Assembly (NCBI RefSeq): GCF_030244015.1
Contig: NZ_JASSYX010000001.1
Location: 186,001 to 250,000 of the forward strand
Source: Pedobacter ginsengisoli
GTDB lineage: Bacteria > Bacteroidota > Bacteroidia > Sphingobacteriales > Sphingobacteriaceae
Direction of reading: 5' to 3'
Length of the DNA: 64,000 bases
This document shows, one piece after another, positions 26,829 to 40,588 of the stretch. Position 1 is the first letter of the stretch; the number at the start of each line of letters is the position of its first letter. The translations under genes and the position numbers were made by a program. The notes below the pieces were generated by a model. That model had not been told where the DNA came from. It saw only the letters and a program-made list of their open reading frames with translations, and ran no database searches.

Positions 26829-28235
26829 TTAGACAAGTTCTTCAATTAAGGTTCTTGGGTCAGTAACCATTCCTGTAACTGCGGCTGCAGCGGCAACCAG
26901 CGGACTGGCTAGCATCGTTCTTGATCCGGGCCCCTGTCTGCCTTCAAAGTTTCTGTTAGAGGTACTCACTGCATATTTTCCGGCAGGGATCTTATCGTCA
27001 TTCATGGCCAGACAAGCAGAACATCCCGGCTGACGTAAAGTAAAACCAGCTTCTGTTAGAATATCCAGCAGACCTTCTTCTTTAATCTGAGATTCCACGA
27101 TATGAGAACCCGGAACCAGCCAAACGGTTACGCCATCAGCTTTATGTCTTCCTTTTACAATTGAAGTAAAGGCCCTGAAGTCCTCAATCCGTCCATTGGT
27201 ACAGCTGCCTACAAATACAAAATCTACCTTCTTGCCGATCATCGAATCGCCTTCAGAAAAGCCCATGTAGCCCAATGACTTGGCATAAGTGGCCGCACCA
27301 CCTTCAGCATGTTCTGCGTCAGGAATCTCATGGGAAATACCCATTCCCATTCCCGGGTTGGTACCATAAGTGATCATTGGCTCAATAGAAGAACCGTCAA
27401 AAGTTAATTCCTTGTCAAAAACAGCGTCCGGATCAGTCTTCAATGTTTTGTAGTAAGCCAGGGCTCTATCCCATGCTTCGCCTTTAGGGCTAAATTCACG
27501 GCCTTTTACATAATTGATGGTGGTTTCGTCCGGAGCGATCATACCACCGCGGGCACCCATTTCAATACTCAAATTACAAACAGTCATCCGGCCTTCCATG
27601 GTCATGTTCTCAAAGACATCACCAGCGTACTCCACGAAATATCCGGTAGCGCCTGAAGTAGAAAGCTGAGAGATGATGAACAGCGCCACATCTTTTGGTG
27701 TAACACCAAGACCTAGTTTGCCGTTTACGTTAATGCGCATTTTTTTAGGCTTAGGCTGCATGATACACTGCGTAGAAAGTACCATTTCCACCTCAGAAGT
27801 ACCAATACCAAAAGCGATAGCGCCAAAAGCACCATGGGTGGAAGTATGTGAATCCCCGCAAACGATAGTAGCACCCGGTTGTGTGATCCCGTATTCAGGA
27901 CCTACCACATGCACAATACCATTTTTTTGGTGGCCCAGTCCCCAGTGGCTAATGCCATACTCATTCGAATTAGACTCCAAAGCCTTCAGCTGATTGGCAG
28001 AAAGCGGATCTGCGACCGGAAGGTGCTGGTTAATGGTTGGCGTGTTGTGATCTGCGGTTGCAAACGTACGCTCAGGATATAAAACTTTGATGCCCCTGCT
28101 TTTTAAACCTAAAAAGGCAACCGGGCTGGTCACTTCGTGAATAAGATGGCGGTCAATAAAAAGCACATCAGGGCCACCTTCAATCTTACGTACCACGTGA
28201 GTGTCCCACACCTTATCAAATAATGTCTTGCTCAT
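26829..28235 (-). CDS. leuC: 3-isopropylmalate dehydratase large subunit
   Basis: 468 residues; the aconitase-family [4Fe-4S] subunit. Cluster ligands lie in [11 protein letters not shown] and in [38 protein letters not shown] carries active-site residues. Its requirement for Fe-S clusters links the operon to the suf locus in the same window. Confidence 0.96.
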
Positions 28236-28271
28236 TTTCTTTATTTTTATAATTTTTCCTGCTGAGAGGGG

Positions 28272-29435
28272 TTAAGCCAATTGCTGCTTGCCCATCATCA
28301 ACAAAAGATCTTGGTCATTAATATCTAATTTACTGTCGGCTACGGTCAGGAAGCGGTGATAAGCGTCTGAAAGCTCCTCTTTAGTCAGGGTAAAGCCCAG
28401 ACGCTCCAGGTGAAACTTTAACGCATGTCTTCCGCTGCGTGCTGTCAGCACAATACTTGCATCCGGAAAACCGACATCTTCAGGTCTGATGATCTCATAG
28501 TTCTCCCGGTTTTTAAGGAAGCCATCCTGGTGGATACCAGAACTATGCGCAAACGCATTGCTGCCAACGATTGCTTTATTCGGTTGTACAGGCATTCGCA
28601 TCTGCGAACTCACCATCCGGCTGATCTCGTAAAAGTTCTTCGTATTGATATTGGTATGCAGTCCAAGTGCCTGGTGTGTTTTCAGGATCATGACGACCTC
28701 TTCGACAGAAGTATTACCTGCGCGCTCACCAATGCCGTTAATGGTACCTTCAATCTGACGTGCGCCATTTTGCAGACCTGCAATTGAATTTGCAGTCGCA
28801 AGGCCCAGGTCATTGTGGCAGTGCACAGAAATAATCGCATTGTCAATATTTTTTACGTTCTCTTTCAGGAATCTGATCTTGCTGCCGTACTGGTCTGGCA
28901 GGCAATAACCATTGGTATCTGGTATATTGACCACCGTGGCACCTGCTGCGATCACAGCCTCTACCATCTGCGCGAGGAAATGAATGTCGGCACGGCCGGC
29001 ATCCTCCGCATAAAACTCAATATCTTCTACATATTGTTTCGCATATTTCACAGCATCAACGGCACGGGCCAGGATGTCTTCCCTGGTGCTGTTGAATTTG
29101 TGTTTGATGTGCATATCAGAAGAACCGATACCCGTATGGATCCTCGGGCGCTTTGCGTATTTCAGTGCAGCCACAGCAGAATCAATATCACCTTTATTGG
29201 CACGTGTCAGCGCACAGATGATCGGCTCCGATACCGCTTTGGACAGTTCTACAACGCTCTGGAAATCTCCGGGACTGGAAATAGGGAAGCCTGCCTCGAT
29301 AATGTCTACACCAAGCGCCTCCAGTTCTTTGGCGATTTCTATTTTTTCAGGGGTCGTCAACTGACAGCCCGGCACTTGTTCACCATCACGCAAGGTGGTG
29401 TCAAACACATAAACTCTATTCGGATCGTGTAACAT
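28272..29435 (-). CDS. leuA: 2-isopropylmalate synthase lacking the C-terminal regulatory domain
   Basis: 387 residues; condenses acetyl-CoA and 2-oxoisovalerate. The catalytic barrel is complete ([16 protein letters not shown] at 11-26, [32 protein letters not shown]), followed by the linker subdomain, and stops before the ~115-residue leucine-binding domain of full-length LeuA (500-520 residues). The 36-bp gap to leuC has no remnant of that domain, so this looks like an evolved short form, not a recent frameshift. Confidence 0.92.
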
Positions 29436-29440
29436 ATTTC

Positions 29441-30955
29441 TTAGGGTTTAGTAAGTATTTCAAAGTTTTCAAAATTATCAGCTGTTTCCACAGCCTCAGT
29501 CATCGTTTCAATGGACTTTACCGCGCCATTTTCCAGTAAGATCCTTTTCTCTATACAAGAAGGAACAAGCGCATCAAAATGTCCAACGTAGATCAGCGTG
29601 GTCCCATTCTTGCACAGCTCATCCACCAGCATATTAAAATATCTCGTCTGATGCAGGTCCAGGCCCTGACAAGGCTCATCCAGTATCAGTAATTCCGGGT
29701 TTTTTATGATCGTTCTGGCCAGCAGGGCCAGTCGCTGTTTGCCCAGGGGCAGTTCAGTCATCAGCACATTTTTGTATTCTTCAAGACCAAAATAACTGAC
29801 CAGTTCATCTGCCTGCGCGTGCTTGGTAGAGCCAGGCTCACAGAACAGTCCCGAGCTGTCATAAAAGCCGGAAGCGATACTTTGCCATACCGTAGCCGAG
29901 GGATCAAAATACCAGTGCAGTTCAGGAGAGATCAGGCCGATACGGGCCTTGATTTCCCAAATGCTTTCACCGGATCCCCGCTTGTTGCCAAACAAATAAA
30001 AATTATTGGAATAAGCCTGCGGATGGTCACCGCAGATCAGGCTCAGTAAAGTTGACTTCCCGGAGCCGTTATGACCCTGAAGCAGCCACTTCTCACCAGA
30101 TCTGACCTCCCAGTCCACATTCCTCAATACCTGTTTTTCGCCATAACTGACGTTGATGCCGATCATTTTTACCACAAGCTCCGACGCAGCAGCAGCGGGG
30201 TGTTCCCTGAGAAAGGCCGGAACCGGCGGAACAGTTTCCTCCGTAAAGAAATCTGTCATGCGGTCAGAAGCAGAAATTTCAACCAGCTTTCCTTCCCTGA
30301 TCTCGGCCAAGCGGTCAATGCACGCAGGTATCTCCAGATCGTTGGCGATCAGGATCAGCTGCATGCCCTGTTCAGCAAGCTCATCCAGTAAAGTATTCAG
30401 GTTTTCGCGTGAGCGGGTATCGAGGCCATTATAAGGCTGGTCAAGGATCAGCAACTGCGGATTGAGCCATAAAGCCTTTACCAGCTGCAGTTTTTTATGC
30501 TCACCGCTCGACAACTGTATCAGCGTCGAATCGATCAGAGCGGCAAAGCCAAGGTCTGACATGATCCTTTCCGCAATACCAAAATTCAGCCCATGTTTCT
30601 TGCCGTAGCTTTCCAGCTCCGCCCTTACGGTAGCCGTGACTTCAACAGCCTGTTTGTTGTAACGCTGCTGATAATAAAAATTAGACTGGCCTTCCAGATC
30701 TTTGAACTGGTACCAGTTGGCCACATAATGAACAACCGGAGGCTGTGCAGCCTCCGGTTTGAAATTTAATGTGATGCTGCCATTTGCGCGGACCAAACCC
30801 GCAATGGCTTTAGCCAATGTCGTTTTACCACTGCCGCTTGCTCCGTATACCAACCAGTTCTCCGATGGATTTATGGTCCAGTTCAGATCCTGTAATACCG
30901 CTTTCTGGCGGTACCAAAGGTTAAGGTTGGTGATATGGACGACGGGCTCTGACAT
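29441..30955 (-). CDS. Duplicated ABC ATPase (ModF/PhrA-like)
   Basis: 504 residues with two ABC cassettes and no membrane domain. Cassette 1: Walker [10 protein letters not shown] near 38 and signature QLSSGEHKK. Cassette 2: Walker [10 protein letters not shown] near 292, and [13 protein letters not shown] in place of the canonical LSGGQ. It resembles ModF (photorepair PhrA) ATPases, whose function is unclear. It lies 2 bp after ilvC and 5 bp before leuA, so it is surely cotranscribed with the amino-acid genes. No transporter partner is nearby. Confidence 0.82.
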
Positions 30956-30957
30956 TA

Positions 30958-32439
30958 CTATGCAGTTTTTATAGCTTTCATCGCAGTCATTGCCTTTCTC
31001 AATACCGCACCGATCTGTTCTACCTGATGTCCGCGGATCGCTTCATTCACTTCGATCAATGCCCTGTTGTCAACCGCTCCGTCTTTACCTTCATTGAAGT
31101 TTTTACCGACAAGATCAGTGTCCACTTTTTTCATGAAATCAGCCAATAGAGGTTTACAAGCCTGGTCAAACAAATAACAGCCATATTCAGCAGTATCAGA
31201 GATCACACGGTTCATTTCAAACAATTTTTTACGGGCGATCGTATTGGCGATCAGCGGGGTTTCATGCAATGACTCATAGTATGCAGACTCCGGTTTGATA
31301 CCAGCCTGAACCATAGTTTCAAAAGCAAGCTCAACACCAGCCCTTACAAAAGCAACCATTAAAGTATAGTTGTCAAAATATTCCTGCTCACCGATCTTCA
31401 CATCACCGGCAGGGGTTTTTTCAAAAGCAGTTTCACCTGTTTCAGCACGCCATGCCAGCAGGTTTTTATCACCATTGGCCCAGTCTTCCATCATGATCCG
31501 GCTGAATTCACCACTCATGATGTCATCCTGGTGTTTCTGGAACAAAGGGCGCATGATGTCTTTCAATTCTTCTGACACTTCAAAAGCTTTGATCTTGGCT
31601 ACATTACTCAGCCTGTCCATCATTGCAGTGATGCCACCTTGTTTCAAGGCTTCAGTGATCACTTCCACACCGTACTGAACCAGTTTAGAAGCATACCCTG
31701 CATCAATTCCTTTTTCGATCATTTTATCAAAAGAGAGGATAGAACCGGTTTGCAACAGACCGCAAAGAATGGTCTGCTCACCCATTAAGTCAGATTTTAC
31801 CTCAGCTACAAAAGATGATTTCAAGACACCAGCCCTGTGGCCGCCGGTACCAACGCAATACGCTTTAGCCTGCAGCAGACCTTTTCCTTCAGGATCGTTT
31901 TCCGGGTGTACAGCGATCAAAGTAGGAACACCAAAGCCCCTTACATATTCAGCCCTTACTTCACTTCCCGGACATTTAGGAGCCACCATGATCACCGTAA
32001 TGTCTTTACGGATCTGCATGCCTTCCTCTACAATGTTAAAGCCATGTGAATACAATAAGGTAGCACCTTGCTTCATCAAAGGCATTACCGCATTTACAAC
32101 AGCAGTATGCTGTTTATCAGGAGTCAGGTTGATCACCAAATCAGCCGAAGGGATCAGTTCTTCATAAGTTCCTACAGTAAAACCATTGTCTGTAGCATTT
32201 TTCCAGGAATCTCTTTTGCCCTCGATAGCTTCTTTACGCAAAGCATAAGAAACATTTAAACCACTATCTCTTAAATTTAAACCCTGGTTCAGGCCTTGTG
32301 CGCCACAGCCAACGATTACCAGTTTTTTACCTTTCAGCACATTTACGCCATCAAGGAATTCAGCGCTGTCCATGAAATCGCAAACACCCAATTGGTTTAA
32401 TTTTTCTCTAAGAGGCAGTGTGTTAAAATAATTTGACAT
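30958..32439 (-). CDS. ilvC: Ketol-acid reductoisomerase, class II
   Basis: 493 residues; isomerises and reduces acetolactate or acetohydroxybutyrate with NADPH and Mg2+. The Rossmann motif [20 protein letters not shown] is near 37-56. Length and the duplicated C-terminal knotted domain fit the long E. coli/plant class II, not the ~330-residue class I. Conserved cofactor-specificity loop [14 protein letters not shown] follows. Confidence 0.95.
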
Positions 32440-32475
32440 CTTTTTTATTTTTTTGATTAAGGTTCGTTTTAATTT

Positions 32476-32949
32476 TTATTTATTATTTAATGCTTTTTTA
32501 ATTGACGAGGCACATCCGTAATGGAAGGCATCGTGGACCGGAAAAAACCTGATGGCATCAGCCGTACTGTTCAGCGCCACCCCATAAGTGGTCATAAACC
32601 CATGGTAATTTACAAAATTACCCGCATTCAGGTCACTTTCCAAAACATCTACAGTGCTTAGCATGAGCGCCTTTAAAGCTTCCACTTCCGTTTTGTCAAT
32701 GAACCGTTCCGGCTTTGTCCCCTTCTGGTACTCCAGCGTCATCTGGTCGCTGATCTTTAGCTCCAGGCCCGCCAGCTTATAGCAAAGCAATTGCTGGCTC
32801 ACAATGATGTGCCCGAAATTCCAGATCATATTGTTGTTAAAGCCTGCCGGTACCTGGTTTAATTCTTCGATAGAAGCACTTTCTATCAACTGAATGAAAT
32901 TCTTCCTGGTCTGCCTGATGATGGTGAATAAATGTTCCATTGCGTTCAA
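32476..32949 (-). CDS. DinB family protein within the ilv operon
   Basis: 157 residues with the four-helix DinB/YfiT fold pattern: an N-terminal helix (LFTIIRQTRKNFIQLIESAS), the first metal His in WNFGHIIVSQQLL near 49, and the C-terminal HDAFHYGCASSIKKAL with the two remaining candidate His ligands. DinB proteins are metal-binding thiol-dependent enzymes or are of unknown function. It is 6 bp downstream of ilvN and 37 bp upstream of ilvC, an unusual partner for this pathway. Confidence 0.78.
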   Translation of the reverse strand: MNAMEHLFTIIRQTRKNFIQLIESASIEELNQVPAGFNNNMIWNFGHIIVSQQLLCYKLAGLELKISDQMTLEYQKGTKPERFIDKTEVEALKALMLSTVDVLESDLNAGNFVNYHGFMTTYGVALNSTADAIRFFPVHDAFHYGCASSIKKALNNK

Positions 32950-32955
32950 AGCGGC

Positions 32956-33573
32956 CTACATGCTAAAAACATTCTTCGCCTTGTCAAGATATTCATTTTC
33001 AATAACGTCTTCACCAGGTTCTCTCCGTTCAAATTCCCTCAGCTTCCGGTTAAAACCCTCACTGTCTTTAATGATCGCCACCCTTGCACTCCTGACAAAT
33101 TCGATCAGTCCGTATGGCTGCAGTACTTCGATCAGCTTGTCTGTTTCTTCCCTGTGCCCTGTAGTTTCAAATACGGTATAATCCTTACGGATCACTACTG
33201 CTCTTGCACCATTTTCACGGAGCAGGCGCTCTACCGAAACCAATTCGGCAATGGTATCCGTAGGCACTTTATACAAGGCCATTTCCTGCCAGATGATATC
33301 TTCATTGGTATTGTAATATACCTTCAACACCTCCACCTGTTTTTCAATCTGACGGGCAAGCTTGCGCACTACCTCTTCAGTTTCATGGATCAGGATGTTG
33401 AAGCGGTGAATGTGCTCAATCTCCGATGGCGATGTATTCAGGCTTTCAATATTGATCTTTCTTCTCGAGAAGATAATCGCTATACGGTTCAGGATACCTA
33501 TGCGGTTCTCCGTATATACCGTGATCGTAAATTCCTGTTTGCTGTTTGATTCTATATCGTTTGAATTGCTCAT
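32956..33573 (-). CDS. ilvN: Acetolactate synthase small (regulatory) subunit
   Basis: 205 residues. N-terminal ACT domain from about residue 14 (FTITVYTENRIGILNRIAIIFSRRKINIESLNTS) that binds valine for feedback, and a second ACT-like C-terminal domain. The length is greater than that of E. coli IlvN (~96) and like IlvH-type or Bacteroidota forms. Follows ilvB by 10 bp. Confidence 0.93.
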   Translation of the reverse strand: MSNSNDIESNSKQEFTITVYTENRIGILNRIAIIFSRRKINIESLNTSPSEIEHIHRFNILIHETEEVVRKLARQIEKQVEVLKVYYNTNEDIIWQEMALYKVPTDTIAELVSVERLLRENGARAVVIRKDYTVFETTGHREETDKLIEVLQPYGLIEFVRSARVAIIKDSEGFNRKLREFERREPGEDVIENEYLDKAKNVFSM

Positions 33574-33583
33574 GATCTGCTAA

Positions 33584-35350
33584 TTATTTAAGTCTGATTT
33601 CACTAACACTGCTGCCCTGAGGTACCATCGGGAATACATTGTTCTCTTTGGCCACCATCACTTCCAGCAAATAAGAGCCTTTGTGGTTCAGCATCTCCGC
33701 AAGCGCTGCTTCCAGGTCTTCACGTTCTGATACCTTTTTACCGGCAATACCATAGGCATCCGCCAGTTTAACAAAATCAGGGCTGGTAATGTCCACAAAG
33801 GAGTAGCGCTTGTCGTGGAACAGCTGCTGCCATTGGCGCACCATTCCAAGGAATCTGTTGTTCAGGATCATGATCTTAACGTCAATGCCGGTCTGCATGA
33901 TAGTACCCAGTTCCTGGCAGGTCATTTGAAAACCACCGTCGCCGATAATGGCCACTACAGTCCGGTCCTGGGCACCAAACTTAGCACCTATTGCGGCAGG
34001 CAATCCAAATCCCATAGTACCAAGACCACCACTGGTGATATTGCTTCTGGTCTGCTGGAAATGTGCATAGCGGCAGGCCACCATCTGGTGCTGGCCTACG
34101 TCAGTTACAATCACCGCTTCTCCTTTAGTCAGGTCATTCAGCTTATTCACTACCTCACCCATGGTCATTTCACCACTTACAGGGTTCAGTTCATCATGAA
34201 TAACGGTTTCGTACTCTGTTTTGTCGTATGCCCTGAACTCGGCCACCCAGGCGTCATGTGTCTTTGCTTCGATCAACGCTGTAAGCATCGGAAGGGTTTC
34301 CTTACAGTCGCCCCAAACCGGAACATCCGCCTTAACATTCTTATCAATCTCGGCAGGGTCAATGTCCAGATGGATGACCTTTGCCTGTTTTGCATATTTA
34401 TCCAGACGGCCGGTTACCCGGTCATCAAAACGCATACCGATGGCGATCATGACATCGCAGGCATTGGTCTGTACATTAGGCCCGTAATTGCCATGCATAC
34501 CCAGCATTCCGACATTCAGCGGATGATCAGTAGGAATTGCACCGGCACCCAGTATAGTCCATGCAGCAGGAATTCCACTTTTCTCTACGAATGCCTTAAA
34601 CTCTGCCTCTGCGCTGCCCAGCAAAACTCCCTGGCCAAATAAAATGAAAGGTTTCTTCGCAGAATTGATCATAGCCGCCGCTGCTTCTATATATTCTTTT
34701 CTTACCAATGGTCTCGGACGGTAACTGCGGATGTGCTCACATGGAACATAACCTTCGTATTCAAACATTTGCAGCTGCGCATTCTTAGTAATATCGATCA
34801 GTACAGGGCCAGGTCTGCCACTGCGGGCGATGTAAAAAGCTTTGGCCAGTACACCTGGAATTTCGGTGGCATCAGTGATCTGGTAATTCCATTTGGTAAC
34901 CGGGGTAGTGATGTTGATCACATCTGTTTCCTGAAAAGCATCAGTTCCCAGTAAGTGGGCAAAAACCTGTCCGGTTATACAAACCATAGGCGTGCTGTCG
35001 ATCTGGGCATCAGCTAAACCTGTCACCAGGTTGGTCGCACCCGGGCCGCTGGTGGCAAATGCCACACCGACCTTGCCGGAAGTACGGGCATATCCCTGCG
35101 CCGCATGTGTGCCGCCTTGTTCATGACGTACTAAAATATGTTTTAATTTATCGCTGTAATCGTAAAGTGCATCATAGATCGGCATGATGGCACCGCCCGG
35201 ATAACCGAAAATTGTATCGGTACCCTCGGCTATTAATCCTTCCAACAAAGCTACAGAACCCGAAACCGTTACAGTCTTTTTAGGTTCCGTTAAAGTATTT
35301 GCTTCTGCTTGTACTGTATCCATTGTATAGTGTTTTATAGGGGTTTCCAA
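33584..35350 (-). CDS. ilvB: Acetolactate synthase large subunit
   Basis: 588 residues; ThDP-dependent enzyme forming acetolactate and acetohydroxybutyrate. The catalytic Glu is in RHEQGGTHAAQGYARTSG near 76, the FAD-associated middle domain near 220-370, and the ThDP/Mg motif is GDGGFQMTCQELGTIMQTGIDVKIMILNN near 470-498. Together with IlvN this is the first common step of valine and isoleucine synthesis. Confidence 0.96.
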   Translation of the reverse strand: METPIKHYTMDTVQAEANTLTEPKKTVTVSGSVALLEGLIAEGTDTIFGYPGGAIMPIYDALYDYSDKLKHILVRHEQGGTHAAQGYARTSGKVGVAFATSGPGATNLVTGLADAQIDSTPMVCITGQVFAHLLGTDAFQETDVINITTPVTKWNYQITDATEIPGVLAKAFYIARSGRPGPVLIDITKNAQLQMFEYEGYVPCEHIRSYRPRPLVRKEYIEAAAAMINSAKKPFILFGQGVLLGSAEAEFKAFVEKSGIPAAWTILGAGAIPTDHPLNVGMLGMHGNYGPNVQTNACDVMIAIGMRFDDRVTGRLDKYAKQAKVIHLDIDPAEIDKNVKADVPVWGDCKETLPMLTALIEAKTHDAWVAEFRAYDKTEYETVIHDELNPVSGEMTMGEVVNKLNDLTKGEAVIVTDVGQHQMVACRYAHFQQTRSNITSGGLGTMGFGLPAAIGAKFGAQDRTVVAIIGDGGFQMTCQELGTIMQTGIDVKIMILNNRFLGMVRQWQQLFHDKRYSFVDITSPDFVKLADAYGIAGKKVSEREDLEAALAEMLNHKGSYLLEVMVAKENNVFPMVPQGSSVSEIRLK

Positions 35351-35355
35351 TTTTG

Positions 35356-37053
35356 TTAATGCGTGTACGAATCGGTAACGCAGCCTTCGCTGGCATTGCT
35401 TACCTGTTTCAGGTATTTATAAAGGACGCCGCTTTTGACGGGCGGAGGCAGCTGTTTCCAGACCGCCCGGCGTGTAGCCAGTTGTTCTTCAGTCAGGTGC
35501 ACGTCAATAGCGTTCTTTGCCGCATCAATGGTAATGATGTCATCATCATGCACCAGGGCAATATTTCCGCCCTCCCATGCCTCAGGGGTAATGTGTCCGA
35601 CCACGAAACCGTGTGTGCCGCCTGAAAAACGACCATCCGTGATCAGGGCTACAGATTTACCCAAACCTGCGCCAATAATCAATGAAGTAGGTTTCAGCAT
35701 CTCCGGCATACCCGGAGCACCTTTAGGACCAACCTGTCTGATCACAACAACATCTCCGCTTTTCACTCTGCCGCTCTGGATACCTGCCATCAAAGATTTT
35801 TCTCCGTCAAAAACACGCGCAGGGCCTGTAAATTTCTCGCCCTCTTTACCGCTGATCTTTGCAACTGAACCTTTTGTTGCCAGATTGCCGTACAGCATTT
35901 GTAAGTGACCGGTTTCTTTGATCGGATTTTCTATAGGGAAGATGATCTTTTGGGTATCAAAATCCAGATCTGCGGCGTCAGCCACATTTTCTGCAATGGT
36001 TTTTCCGGTTACGGTCAGACAATCGCCATGGATCAACCCCACTTTTAATAAATATTTCAATACTGCAGGTACACCGCCGATCTCATGCAGGTCTTCCATC
36101 AGGTAAGTTCCGCTGGGCTTCAAATCTCCCAATACCGGAGTGCTGTCGCTCACCTTCTGGAAATCTTCAAGCGTCAGGTTCAATCCAACAGACTTGGCTA
36201 TCGCTATCAGATGCAAGACCGCATTTGTCGATCCTCCCAATACCATTACTGTTACAATCGCATTGTGAAACGCTTTCTCAGTCATGATGTCTGCAGGCAG
36301 AATGTTTTTTTCCAGAAGAATACGGATATACTTTCCTGCCTCCACACACTCTTTCTTTTTCTCTTCACTCACCGCCGGGTAAGAAGAGCTGTACGGCAAA
36401 CTCATACCCAGCGCCTCAATAGCAGAAGCCATCGTATTTGCTGTATACATACCACCGCATGAACCCGCTCCGGGACAGGCGTTTTTGATTACGCCCTGAA
36501 AATCCTCTTCTTCTAAATTGCCGGCCAGTTTTTGTCCTAAAGCCTCAAATGCCGACACAATATTTAATGAAGCACCTTTATACTTTCCTGAATGTATACT
36601 TCCGCCATACACCATGATTGAAGGACGGTTCAGGCGGCCCATCGCCATGATGGAACCTGGCATGTTCTTATCACAGCCGGGAATTGTGATCAGGCCATCA
36701 TAATACTGGCCGCCGCAGATGGTTTCAATAGAATCCGCGATAACGTCTCTGGAAACCAGAGAATAGCGCATCCCGTCAGTTCCGTTGGACATGCCATCAC
36801 TTACACCGATAGTGCCAAAAGTCAAACCGACCATATCATTTTTCCAGACACCTTCTTTCACGATCTGCGCCAGATCATTCAAATGCATATTGCAGGTGTT
36901 TCCATCATAACCCATGCTGGCAATACCAACCTGGGCTTTGTCCATGTCTTCTTTGGTCAATCCAATTCCATAAAGCATAGCCTGAGCAGCCGGCTGGGTA
37001 GGATCCTGGGTAAATGTTTTACTGTAACGGTTGATTTCTGATGTTTGTGACAT
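35356..37053 (-). CDS. ilvD: Dihydroxy-acid dehydratase
   Basis: 565 residues; Fe-S and Mg-dependent dehydratase, last step before transamination. Cluster cysteines: TCNMHL near 54, GCDKNMPGS near 128, and [18 protein letters not shown] near 194-211. Conserved [16 protein letters not shown] and the C-terminal [15 protein letters not shown] are also present. Follows ilvE by 39 bp. Confidence 0.96.
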
Positions 37054-37092
37054 ATATTAGGTCTGTAGGTGTGTTATATGATTACTTCTGTG

Positions 37093-37983
37093 TTATATGA
37101 TTACTTCGTAATTTTGTTTTTCTAATGCCAGTGATTTATAGGTGCGCTGTATCGTTGCGCCCACACTGTCCGGCCATCTGAGCGGAAATTTATATTCGTC
37201 AACAGATCCGATTCCGGCTATTTCCGTAGCAGTGCCGCAAAAAAATGCACTGTCGGAATGTTTTAAGTCCTTTATGGTCAGATGTTCTTCAATCAGTTCA
37301 ATATCGAGTACATGGCACAATTCTATCACGGTCTCCCGGGTGATTCCCGGCAGAATATTTCCAATAGGAGGGGTGTATAAACGGCCGTTTTTCTCAATAA
37401 ATATATTAGCACCCGGTGCCTCAGCAACATTACCGTAACTGTCCAAAAGTAAGGCCTCGTCAAATCCTTTGCTTTTGGCTTCGGTAGTCGCCAGTATGGA
37501 ATTTACATAGTTACCACTTACCTTAGCTTCTATAGGTGTCGACTTAGGGCTTGGCCGCTCATAGCTGGATACCATAACCTTCAATAACTTATGTCCCAGA
37601 TAGGCATCCCACTCAAAAGCACAGATCATGATCGATACATCTTTTGCGGCAATTAGCGACATATTGGGTGCGCAGTAAATCAGTGGCCGGATATATGCGT
37701 TCTTTAAATTATTGTATTCCAGTAATTTATAAGTCTTCTTGATCAGTTCGTCAATGTTCCATTTAAATGGAATGTGTACCAGTTCGGCAGAACGCCTCAA
37801 TCTTTCAAAATGCTCCCTGGCTTTGAAAATGCGTGTACCGTTGTGCGTGTGGTATGCCCTTAAACCGTCAAATACCGCATATCCATAATGCAGCGACTGT
37901 CCGTATAAACTAGTGGTTGTATCACTGGCTTTTTCAAACCTGCCGTTTAAATAAAGTACGGTATTTGAATTGAAGTACTGCAT
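37093..37983 (-). CDS. ilvE: Branched-chain amino-acid aminotransferase
   Basis: 296 residues, fold type IV PLP aminotransferase. SLHYGYAVFDGLRAY is near 30-44, the PLP lysine lies in EAKVSGNYVNSILATTEAKSKGFDEALLLD near 152-181, and GNILPGITRETVIELC near 221. First structural gene of the ilv-leu operon; the ~210-nt leader upstream contains a small Ile/Leu/Val-rich frame and a terminator. Confidence 0.95.
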   Translation of the reverse strand: MQYFNSNTVLYLNGRFEKASDTTTSLYGQSLHYGYAVFDGLRAYHTHNGTRIFKAREHFERLRRSAELVHIPFKWNIDELIKKTYKLLEYNNLKNAYIRPLIYCAPNMSLIAAKDVSIMICAFEWDAYLGHKLLKVMVSSYERPSPKSTPIEAKVSGNYVNSILATTEAKSKGFDEALLLDSYGNVAEAPGANIFIEKNGRLYTPPIGNILPGITRETVIELCHVLDIELIEEHLTIKDLKHSDSAFFCGTATEIAGIGSVDEYKFPLRWPDSVGATIQRTYKSLALEKQNYEVII

Positions 37984-38030
37984 TTTTGTATGGGTATGTA
38001 GGGTATTAAATTTATATTAAGTGTTTCATT

Positions 38031-38059
38031 AAAAAAGCGCCACTTTTGGGTGGCGCTTT
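38031..38059 (-). terminator. Intrinsic terminator in the ilv leader (attenuator)
   Basis: On the minus strand, AAAGCGCCAC pairs with GTGGCGCTTT (perfect 10-bp stem, 6-nt loop) and is followed by a run of six U, three of them within the stem. It lies 47 bp upstream of the ilvE start and 24 nt downstream of the leader peptide stop. A terminator placed between a promoter and its own operon is the hallmark of attenuation. Confidence 0.88.
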
Positions 38060-38083
38060 GTATATTTTGTATTAAATATTCAA

Positions 38084-38167
38084 TTATAGCGCCATGTCCT
38101 TCCGAATAATCAGCAGGAGAATCACATTTGTGATGACTGTAAACAAGGTGCTAACTGAATTGCTCAT
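38084..38167 (-). CDS. Branched-chain amino-acid leader peptide
   Basis: 27-residue open frame, ATG at 38167 to TAA at 38084. It contains the run VITNVILLLII (residues 11-21); 12 of 27 residues are Ile, Leu or Val, and Thr, the isoleucine precursor, is also present. The last codons (ATGGCGCTA) contain TGGCGCT, which can pair with AGCGCCA in the 5' arm of the downstream terminator. A ribosome stalled at the Ile/Leu codons would leave TGGCGCT free to form this antiterminator. A ribosome reaching the stop would cover it. Role inferred; comparable to ilv leader peptides of enterobacteria. Confidence 0.82.
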   Translation of the reverse strand: MSNSVSTLFTVITNVILLLIIRKDMAL

Positions 38168-38198
38168 GTTAATAATTATTATCGTTGGTTTATAGAAT

Positions 38199-38229
38199 CC
38201 AATTTACCGTTTGAAGTTTAAACTATCAA
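38199..38229 (-). promoter_or_regulatory. Candidate promoter of the ilv-leu operon
   Basis: Minus-strand TTG (38229-38227), a 20-bp spacer, and TAAATTGG (38206-38199), one mismatch from TAnnTTTG. The spacing equals that of the tRNA-Arg promoter in this window. Transcription would begin near 38193, about 25 nt before the leader peptide ATG. Confidence 0.5.
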
Positions 38230-38489
38230 TAGGCTATTGAAAATAATTGAAAAAAAATATAATTTCAAAATTTAAAGAATATAACAAATTAAATACTTAT
38301 ATATGCGCATATTACATTTCTTAAAGTGGACGTCTCTATACCAAATATGAAATCGGTATTCAGTATAGGTTTTATGCAAGCATTATAAATTGTGCCATTT
38401 TCTTCCTAAAATGCTTAAAGTGTTAATAAAAGTTGACAAAATTACGATCGTTTTACTGTCTGTTGTCCCGCACTTTAGCCATCGCTATT
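38230..38489. other. AT-rich intergenic stretch upstream of the ilv operon
   Basis: Very AT-rich, with no open frame that has coding character and no clear structure. With the repeats to 38760 it makes up a gene-free zone of about 600 bp between the divergent ends of the ilv operon leader and atpC. Confidence 0.4.
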
Positions 38490-38641
38490 TTGCTCATTAC
38501 CGCCATGCCCATTACTGCTCTGCTCCTCATCACCCGGACCTGGTCATACCGCTCATCATCACCCCGCTCATCATCACCCCGCCCTGATCACGCCGCTCCT
38601 CATCGCCCTGTCCTGGTCACGCCGCTGCTCATCACCCCGCC
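38490..38641. repeat. GC-rich degenerate tandem repeat
   Basis: Built from variants of GCTCATCATCACCCC; two units at 38551-38580 are perfect 15-bp copies, and others with TGGTCACGCC or CTCATCGCCC flank them. The base composition contrasts sharply with the AT-rich DNA on the left. It runs directly into the palindromic repeat copy 2. Not coding in any convincing frame. Confidence 0.75.
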
Positions 38642-38740
38642 CGTCATTGCGAGGCACGAAGCAATCTCCCGGAGCGGAGCTCTGCGGACCTTGCAATTTT
38701 TATTATTGTAGTGTAGATTGTTTCGTGCCCCGCAATGACG
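38642..38740. repeat. Palindromic REP/MITE-like repeat, copy 2
   Basis: Left arm 38642-38667 and right arm 38715-38740 are complementary with two mismatches; the arms are the same sequence family as 23420-23481 (CGTCATTGCG...GCACGAAGCAATCT). A 47-bp centre replaces the short loop of copy 1, and its right end (GTAGTGT next to the arm) matches the copy 1 loop, showing common descent. Confidence 0.88.
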
Positions 38741-38760
38741 AAACCGGAGGCCGCTTAAAT

Positions 38761-38788
38761 AAAAAAGCCCTTTGAAATTTCAAAGGGC
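38761..38788 (-). terminator. Terminator of atpD-atpC
   Basis: Perfect 22-nt palindrome (GCCCTTTGAAA and its complement, 38767-38788) followed on the minus strand by six T (38766-38761). Lies 26 bp after the atpC stop. Confidence 0.88.
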
Positions 38789-38813
38789 CTTTCAATATTG
38801 AATAAATTAAATA

Positions 38814-39056
38814 TTAAGCTACCCCTTCGGCCAGCACAATAATTTTGTTTTTTAAAACTTCCACTACGCCACCTTTGATATTAAAGGTATCCTCACCGGC
38901 TTTGCCTTTTACAATTACAGGGCCATCTTCCAAAGTGGAGATGATGGGCGCGTGGTCTCTCAAAATCTGGAAAGAACCCATTGTGCCGGGAACTGTAACA
39001 GCGGTTACTTCGCCTTCAAAAACTTTCTTGTCTGGGGTTAATATTTCTAGTGTCAT
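38814..39056 (-). CDS. atpC: ATP synthase F1 epsilon subunit, short form
   Basis: 80 residues, the N-terminal beta-sandwich only (LEILTPDKKVFEGEVTAVTVPGTMGSFQILRDHAPIISTL). The C-terminal helical hairpin that inhibits ATP hydrolysis in the ~135-residue E. coli subunit is absent, as in many Bacteroidota. Ends the atpD-atpC pair. Confidence 0.94.
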   Translation of the reverse strand: MTLEILTPDKKVFEGEVTAVTVPGTMGSFQILRDHAPIISTLEDGPVIVKGKAGEDTFNIKGGVVEVLKNKIIVLAEGVA

Positions 39057-39067
39057 TGTTTTTGTGA

Positions 39068-40588
<1,521 letters not shown>

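Follow-up and report, generated by a model that had tools for sequence, protein, structure and literature searches.

A probable ribosome-mediated transcription attenuator of the ilv-leu operon in Pedobacter ginsengisoli, with counterparts in other Bacteroidota

Introduction

Does a short open reading frame (ORF) rich in isoleucine, leucine and valine codons, lying between a promoter-like element and a terminator ahead of ilvE, allow the ribosome to decide whether the ilv-leu operon of Pedobacter ginsengisoli is transcribed? The question is raised by a locus on the minus strand of a 64 000-nucleotide stretch of DNA (the window, to which coordinates refer unless a contig is given). In enterobacteria, the ilvGMEDA, ilvBN, leuABCD and thrABC attenuators consist of a leader peptide rich in the amino acids of the pathway and of a terminator and an antiterminator that share one arm. 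In the trp, his and ilv form, a protector helix between regions 1 and 2 additionally gives termination when the leader is not translated. An earlier note, made from the sequence of this DNA, had proposed an attenuator of the enterobacterial ilv type.

Leader-peptide attenuation is already known as a kind of control, this phylum included. For Flavobacterium psychrophilum, the main text of one paper reports 'strong clues' for it upstream of amino-acid biosynthesis operons and no Rfam hits for structured 5' elements; ilv does not occur as a word in that main text (PMC9723704). The inferred mechanism and the phylum are the same as here, but Flavobacterium belongs to another family of Bacteroidota than Pedobacter. 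Passages on Bacteroides thetaiotaomicron describe small ORFs reminiscent of attenuation leaders (PMC7366714). An upstream-ORF attenuator has also been described for ilvBNC of Corynebacterium (PMC10272879 and PMC11857589, the abstract of the latter mentioning three hairpins), which is likewise a branched-chain operon outside Proteobacteria, although in a different phylum and with a different gene order. The present analysis adds the Pedobacter ilv example, support from covariation and indications that a protector is not generally present. Work by Lopatovskaya et al. from 2010 is said to cover Bacteroidetes, and priority for the idea may be theirs.

Materials and methods

A whole-genome search for IlvE matched 114 of 119 genomes of the genus and 108 of 201 genomes of the family sample; each of the five same-genus genomes lacking a match was <90% complete. 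Among named relatives, the closest were Pedobacter. The 114 same-genus loci that were read comprised 107 from the first genome set and seven more, leaving unread 7 of 114 genomes with an ilvE match in the first set and 3 of 10 in the additional set. In total, 189 ilvE loci (L002-L190) yielded 168 distinct 300-nt stretches; L191-L202, non-Bacteroidota by title and with 24-40% identity, were left out. The 134 leaders found by script were reduced to 73 representatives with <80% identity, which were used for the protector, ribosome-position and region 2 position tests, and 23 Bacteroidota representatives were picked by hand for the covariation test. Group A contained 25 sequences, of which 24 were aligned (L184 was left out). 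Because the MAFFT alignment A1 has gaps within region 3, covariation was assessed from duplex energies instead of from pairs in this alignment. The ribosome model assumed a footprint from -15 to +13 nt around the A site and gave P(2:3), the probability of pairing between regions 2 and 3 before region 4 emerges.

Results and discussion

Organization of the ilv-leu locus

When the minus strand was re-read, the promoter-like element, leader frame and terminator before ilvE matched the earlier description base for base, in the claimed order and with the right coordinates. A Bacteroidota-type promoter sequence, TTG-N20-TAAATTGG (38229-38199; TTG at 38229-38227, exactly 20 nt, then TAAATTGG at 38206-38199), is followed by an ORF of 27 codons plus stop that encodes MSNSVSTLFTVITNVILLLIIRKDMAL (38167-38084), by the terminator (38059-38031) and by the ATG of ilvE at 37983. 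As the first structural gene, ilvE (37093-37983, minus strand) matched PRK06606 with 286.5 bits (cutoff 279) and ilvE_I above its cutoff. The remaining operon, as far as scanned (26829-37053, minus strand), comprises ilvD, ilvB, ilvN, an ORF, ilvC, an ABC ATPase gene, leuA and leuC; gene order and strand suggest that the genes from ilvE to leuC are co-transcribed. On the basis of NCBIfam profile matches, the operon encodes the branched-chain (Ile/Leu/Val) pathway and is thus cognate to the amino acids of the leader. An atpD gene lies upstream of the ilvE region on the same strand.

Several minor features of the locus may be mentioned. The ATPase between ilvC and leuA (29441-30955) is ModF-like, with 321.8 bits against a cutoff of 459, and the 157-aa ORF between ilvN and ilvC (32476-32949) gave no match in the NCBIfam search. 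Elsewhere in the same genome (C1:1045670-1047337) lies another gene of the IlvD family, which shares 61% identity with the ilvD of the operon.

Conservation of the leader, terminator and promoter element

Comparison of related loci shows that the leader, the terminator and the promoter element are conserved. The earlier note had suggested looking in relatives for a small Ile/Leu/Val frame and for compensatory changes; both were found, the frame together with an intrinsic terminator in all 114 same-genus ilvE loci (112 by script, and L074 and L082, whose terminators are bulged, by eye). On the reverse strand of these loci, the same script found nothing (0/114). Over all distinct stretches it matched 134 of 168 on the forward strand, 1 of 168 on the reverse strand and none of 840 shuffles, its criterion itself including Ile/Leu/Val richness; among the 34 stretches that it did not match, L074, L082, L101 and L185 show the layout when read. 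As a side observation, the upstream distance from ilvE to the attenuator is greater by about 100 nt in L044, L046, L050, L054 and others, and in L046 a second small ORF (beginning MNRPRLLNQ) is present between terminator and ilvE.

The putative control codons of the window leader are codons 11-21 (38105-38137), which read VITNVILLLII. Nine Ile, Leu or Val residues within 11 codons are more than chance would give: 96 of 200 000 random 27-mers drawn with the amino-acid usage of nine window ORFs reached this number, as did 7 of 50 000 shuffles of the nucleotides. Among 35 distinct 27-codon leaders, pairwise single-nucleotide differences in codons 10-21 comprised 1315 synonymous changes, 642 exchanges among Ile, Leu and Val, and 398 others (56%, 27% and 17%, versus 28%, 17% and 56% expected without constraint). 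Judged from these comparisons, the leader is under selection as a peptide. Codon 14 was Asn in 35 of 35 distinct leaders. The Thr codons, which the earlier note had considered notable since threonine is the isoleucine precursor, proved poorly conserved: at codons 10 and 13, the Thr positions of the window's run, Thr occurred in 8 and 1 of the 35 leaders, respectively, and the idea that these codons signal the isoleucine precursor was rejected.

The three Leu codons of the window's run are CTC CTG CTG; in the nine window ORFs, CTG and CTC make up 0.41 and 0.03 of Leu codons. Across the 73 representative leaders, CTC and CTA account for 0.13 and 0.23 of Leu codons versus 0.03 and 0.02 in the window ORFs, a comparison that sets leaders of other genomes against the window genome only. 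Such enrichment might serve as a rare-codon amplifier, but pairing within the codon hairpin described below could explain it.

The pattern TTG-N17..23-TAnnTTGG precedes 104 of 112 same-genus leaders, every time with a spacer of 20 (shuffles, 5/5600), and seven of the eight leaders lacking it read TAAATTGT at the same place. A generic scan listed five promoter-like sites, including 38229-38201, with no excess over shuffles (mean 3.5, s.d. 1.7).

A palindrome, AGAATnATATTCT, was also observed at about 38254-38266 and in relatives, where it often precedes the leader ATG by about 90-135 nt. It agrees at 11 or 12 of 12 positions in 60 of 112 same-genus loci (shuffles, 10/2240), a count in the same sequences from which the pattern had been drawn up; the window copy is degraded (9 of 12). 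We take it to resemble an Lrp-type box. An Lrp regulon found no support, the exact palindrome occurring once in the window's own genome and a reversed control twice.

Covariation between the leader end and the terminator

The intrinsic terminator (38031-38059, minus strand; -15.8 kcal/mol) consists of a perfect 10-bp stem (38059-38050 with 38043-38034), a 6-nt loop and a U run (38036-38031). A generic scan lists its inverted repeat on the plus strand only; on the minus strand the repeat escaped the scan, as half of the six U belong to the stem and the other three do not satisfy the tail rule. TGGCGCT in the last leader codons (region 2, 38094-38088) and AGCGCCA in the 5' arm of the terminator (region 3, 38057-38051) are exact reverse complements and able to pair, as had been claimed, region 3 being common to antiterminator and terminator. 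Within the antiterminator, folding gives an inner helix, ATATTT:AAATAT (38062-38079), which also folds in the eight same-clade relatives printed (L003, L005, L008, L009, L010, L029, L059 and L066, with other pairs in L059 and L066) and was not seen in L042. The window's antiterminator segment folds at -14.4 kcal/mol.

None of 200 shuffles paired as well as the window's leader end and terminator arm, and the corresponding duplex was in the best 5% (equalled by no more than 10 of 200 shuffles) in 117 of 134 leaders, close relatives included. In the 23 representatives, the own 2:3 pairings summed to -314.5 kcal/mol, versus -212.5 (s.d. 12.6) for permuted partners, with 0 of 20 000 permutations as good. 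In 8 of 23 the own partner ranked first, and in 7 it ranked second; in five others (L036, L083, L085, L117 and L176) it came sixth or lower. Regions 2 and 3 hardly vary within the window's own clade, so that compensatory change is seen between clades: the paired arms are, for example, TAGGCGC/GCGCCTA in L072, TGGAGG/CCTCCA in L160 and L168, AAGGAAGGC/GCCTTCCTT in L116 and GGGAATGG/CCATTCCC in L180. The arms of L087 are GGAGACG/CGTCTCC, of which the covariation test scored the inner part only. This covariation supports the claim that terminator and antiterminator exclude each other through their common arm.

When the whole leader was searched for the segment most complementary to the terminator arm, this segment lay between -20 and +10 nt of the stop codon's end in 68 of 73 representatives (null, 0.46). 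Region 2 would accordingly be covered by a ribosome pausing at the stop codon of the leader.

A weak protector and the effect of ribosome position

A pairing that hides TGGCGCT when no ribosome is present had not been found in the earlier work. Folding indicates that one exists in the window, formed by region 1 (38150-38160, minus strand) with 38090-38087 and 38084-38078; this pairing is weak and not general in relatives. The 13-nt region 2 span was paired with a probability of 0.78, compared with 0.58 when the upstream sequence was shuffled (1 of 30 as high), and the window protector is, by this prediction, partial. Over the 73 representatives there was no excess over shuffled upstream sequence (0.64 versus 0.62), which lends no support to a protector as a general feature. 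High protector pairing was found in L180 (0.99), L182 (0.99) and L184 (0.82). L182 and L184 behave classically in the model, with P(2:3) of 0.00 and 0.27 without a ribosome and up to 0.89 and 0.88 when it stalls; L180 was discarded as a classical case since, with region 3 included in the fold, 2:3 forms at 0.89 even when there is no ribosome. A further predicted hairpin over the Leu/Ile codons (38098-38117) might be a pause site or partial protector. The 40 nt before region 2, comprising this codon hairpin and a second small one, fold at -12.1 kcal/mol, whereas shuffles average -5.0 and one in 100 folds as well; this stretch was in the best 5% in 16 of 73 representatives.

In the ribosome model, mean P(2:3) over the 73 representatives was 0.73 with the ribosome on Ile/Leu/Val codons and 0.01 at the stop codon, the latter value being due in part to the assumed footprint and to region 2 having been sought close to the stop, a position that was tested separately. 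L087 (0.59) and L116 (0.33) retain modelled 2:3 pairing at the stop codon. In the window, P(2:3) was 0.56 with no ribosome, and with the ribosome on Ile/Leu/Val codons it averaged 0.64 and reached 0.73 at best: 0.56 at codons 11-13, 0.67-0.73 at codons 14-19 and 0.56 at codons 20-21. At codon 22 it was down to 0.33, and from codon 23 onward, the stop included, it was 0.00. Over the 73 representatives, modelled stalling does not lift P(2:3) above the ribosome-free state (0.73 versus 0.69, P=0.91), and only 8 of 73 had a ribosome-free value <0.3. As no convincing 1:2 protector exists in most relatives tested, an untranslated leader should favor read-through, which is the computed default in most representatives for folding at 37 °C without transcription kinetics.

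Proposed mechanism and alternative explanations

We consider the element to be a ribosome-mediated transcription attenuator of the ilv-leu operon, with a probability of roughly 0.93. RNA polymerase would start just downstream of 38199, and a ribosome would translate the 27-codon leader. With ample charged Ile-, Leu- and Val-tRNA, the ribosome would reach the stop codon and its footprint would hide region 2, leaving region 3 to pair with region 4, so that the terminator would end transcription near 38031. If one charged tRNA were short, the ribosome would stall on the control codons with region 2 free; the 2:3 helix and the inner ATATTT:AAATAT helix would then form first, and transcription would run into ilvE. 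The dependence of 2:3 on ribosome position is modelled, and we infer that leader translation, termination and the starvation response take place in the cell.

Intrinsic terminators are often intergenic, and with atpD upstream on the same strand the hairpin might simply end upstream transcription, ilvE having its own promoter downstream of it. This is very improbable: only 47 nt separate the U run from the ilvE ATG, and no TTG-N17..23-TAnnTTG element was seen there on reading. The promoter element, leader and terminator are moreover kept together in order across the genus, and there is covariation between terminator arm and leader end. The same covariation, acting in cis on the 3' codons, argues against a functional hydrophobic (membrane) micropeptide that acts in trans next to an incidental terminator. 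The peptide is indeed hydrophobic and conserved at the protein level, yet leader length, counted from the first ATG, ranges from 14 to >50 codons, and peptides from different clades seem to share nothing beyond a richness in Ile, Leu and Val; Thr-, His- and Trp-containing leader ORFs also precede thrA, hisG and a trpE-like gene in the same genome. We regard this explanation as even less probable than an ordinary terminator.

Just as improbable as the micropeptide is a T-box, riboswitch or protein-bound leader that senses an amino acid or tRNA directly. The 5' leader is structured (whole window leader fold, z=-3.08), and a protein might act as a further layer of control, given the Lrp-like palindrome that relatives conserve upstream of the promoter. 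However, conservation tracks the codons and the 2:3:4 helices, and no Rfam family reached its gathering score in window 37000-39500, where the best leader match was Phe_leader with 22.1 bits (cutoff 55), or in 12 loci, including the thr, his and trp leaders of the same genome (0 matches). A PyrR-like match at 38758-38891 was rejected (32.3 bits versus a cutoff of 54).

The attenuation proposed earlier is supported, with amendments concerning the protector and the Thr codons. Like the enterobacterial ilv, leu and thr attenuators, the element combines a leader rich in cognate residues, a common arm, a leader stop codon beside region 2 and a cognate operon. In contrast with them, there is no match to an Rfam leader family, most relatives tested have a weak 1:2 protector or none, and on reading the sequence no Shine-Dalgarno-like element was seen before the window's leader ATG. 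The computed read-through default in most representatives likewise differs from the enterobacterial trp, his and ilv scheme.

Covariation shows leader-peptide attenuators at the branched-chain operons of Pedobacter and of several other Bacteroidota lineages: a textbook principle, but one that recurs in a poorly studied phylum, often seemingly without one standard part. We tentatively suggest, as a generalization that may well fail, that Bacteroidota possess widespread leader-peptide attenuators built mostly from two alternative helices without a protector, with read-through as the default and the completed leader switching the operon off. Bacteroidota ribosomes hardly use Shine-Dalgarno pairing. 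If the suggestion were true, the leader would need prompt translation without such a signal and a ribosome keeping pace with RNA polymerase, and the element would therefore test directly, in living cells of this phylum, whether transcription and translation are coupled. The leaders are ready-made reporters of such coupling between ribosome and RNA polymerase, and can distinguish read-through of an untranslated leader (no protector) from termination (classical scheme).

Other leaders in the same genome and beyond the genus

Upstream of thrA in the same genome (L207, C4:247000-250500), a leader encoding MYINSSITTITTTTTGINRGR is followed by a terminator, and the leader end GGAAGGT faces ACCTTCC of the terminator; from its sequence, this leader is a thr attenuator of the same design as that of ilv. 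Two further leader ORFs are candidates. One, MNNILNHHLHLHHRLLAMYM, with five His in seven codons, lies upstream of hisG (L203, C1 near 441 kb), where no clear terminator was identified on reading the upstream region. The other, MINNIHTWQWHSTSEKSLVVSLCTL, is followed by a terminator upstream of a trpE-like gene (L209, C4 near 624 kb; TrpE model 408 bits, cutoff 517.7).

In the family outside the genus, the distribution is patchy: among the 22 ilvE loci counted (L099-L118, L137 and L138), 4 have the layout (L099, L116 and L117 by script, L101 by eye) and 18 are without it. The ilvE layout also occurs, with dissimilar sequences, in assemblies of Chitinophagaceae (Chitinophaga, Flavihumibacter), Cyclobacteriaceae and Flavobacteriales. 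Strong IlvD matches were obtained in 47 of 118 phylum-sample genomes, the window's own genome included, and in 15 of 46 genomes of this sample a leader and terminator were found before ilvD. The leader of L248, for instance, is MYPLVILLSFIILIGFTK and pairs over 10 bp; weak pairings are seen in L217, L219 and L227 (-6.3, -9.1 and -7.0, respectively). At least one of the 31 genomes without an ilvD leader (L213, genome G063) has a leader before ilvE instead (L049).
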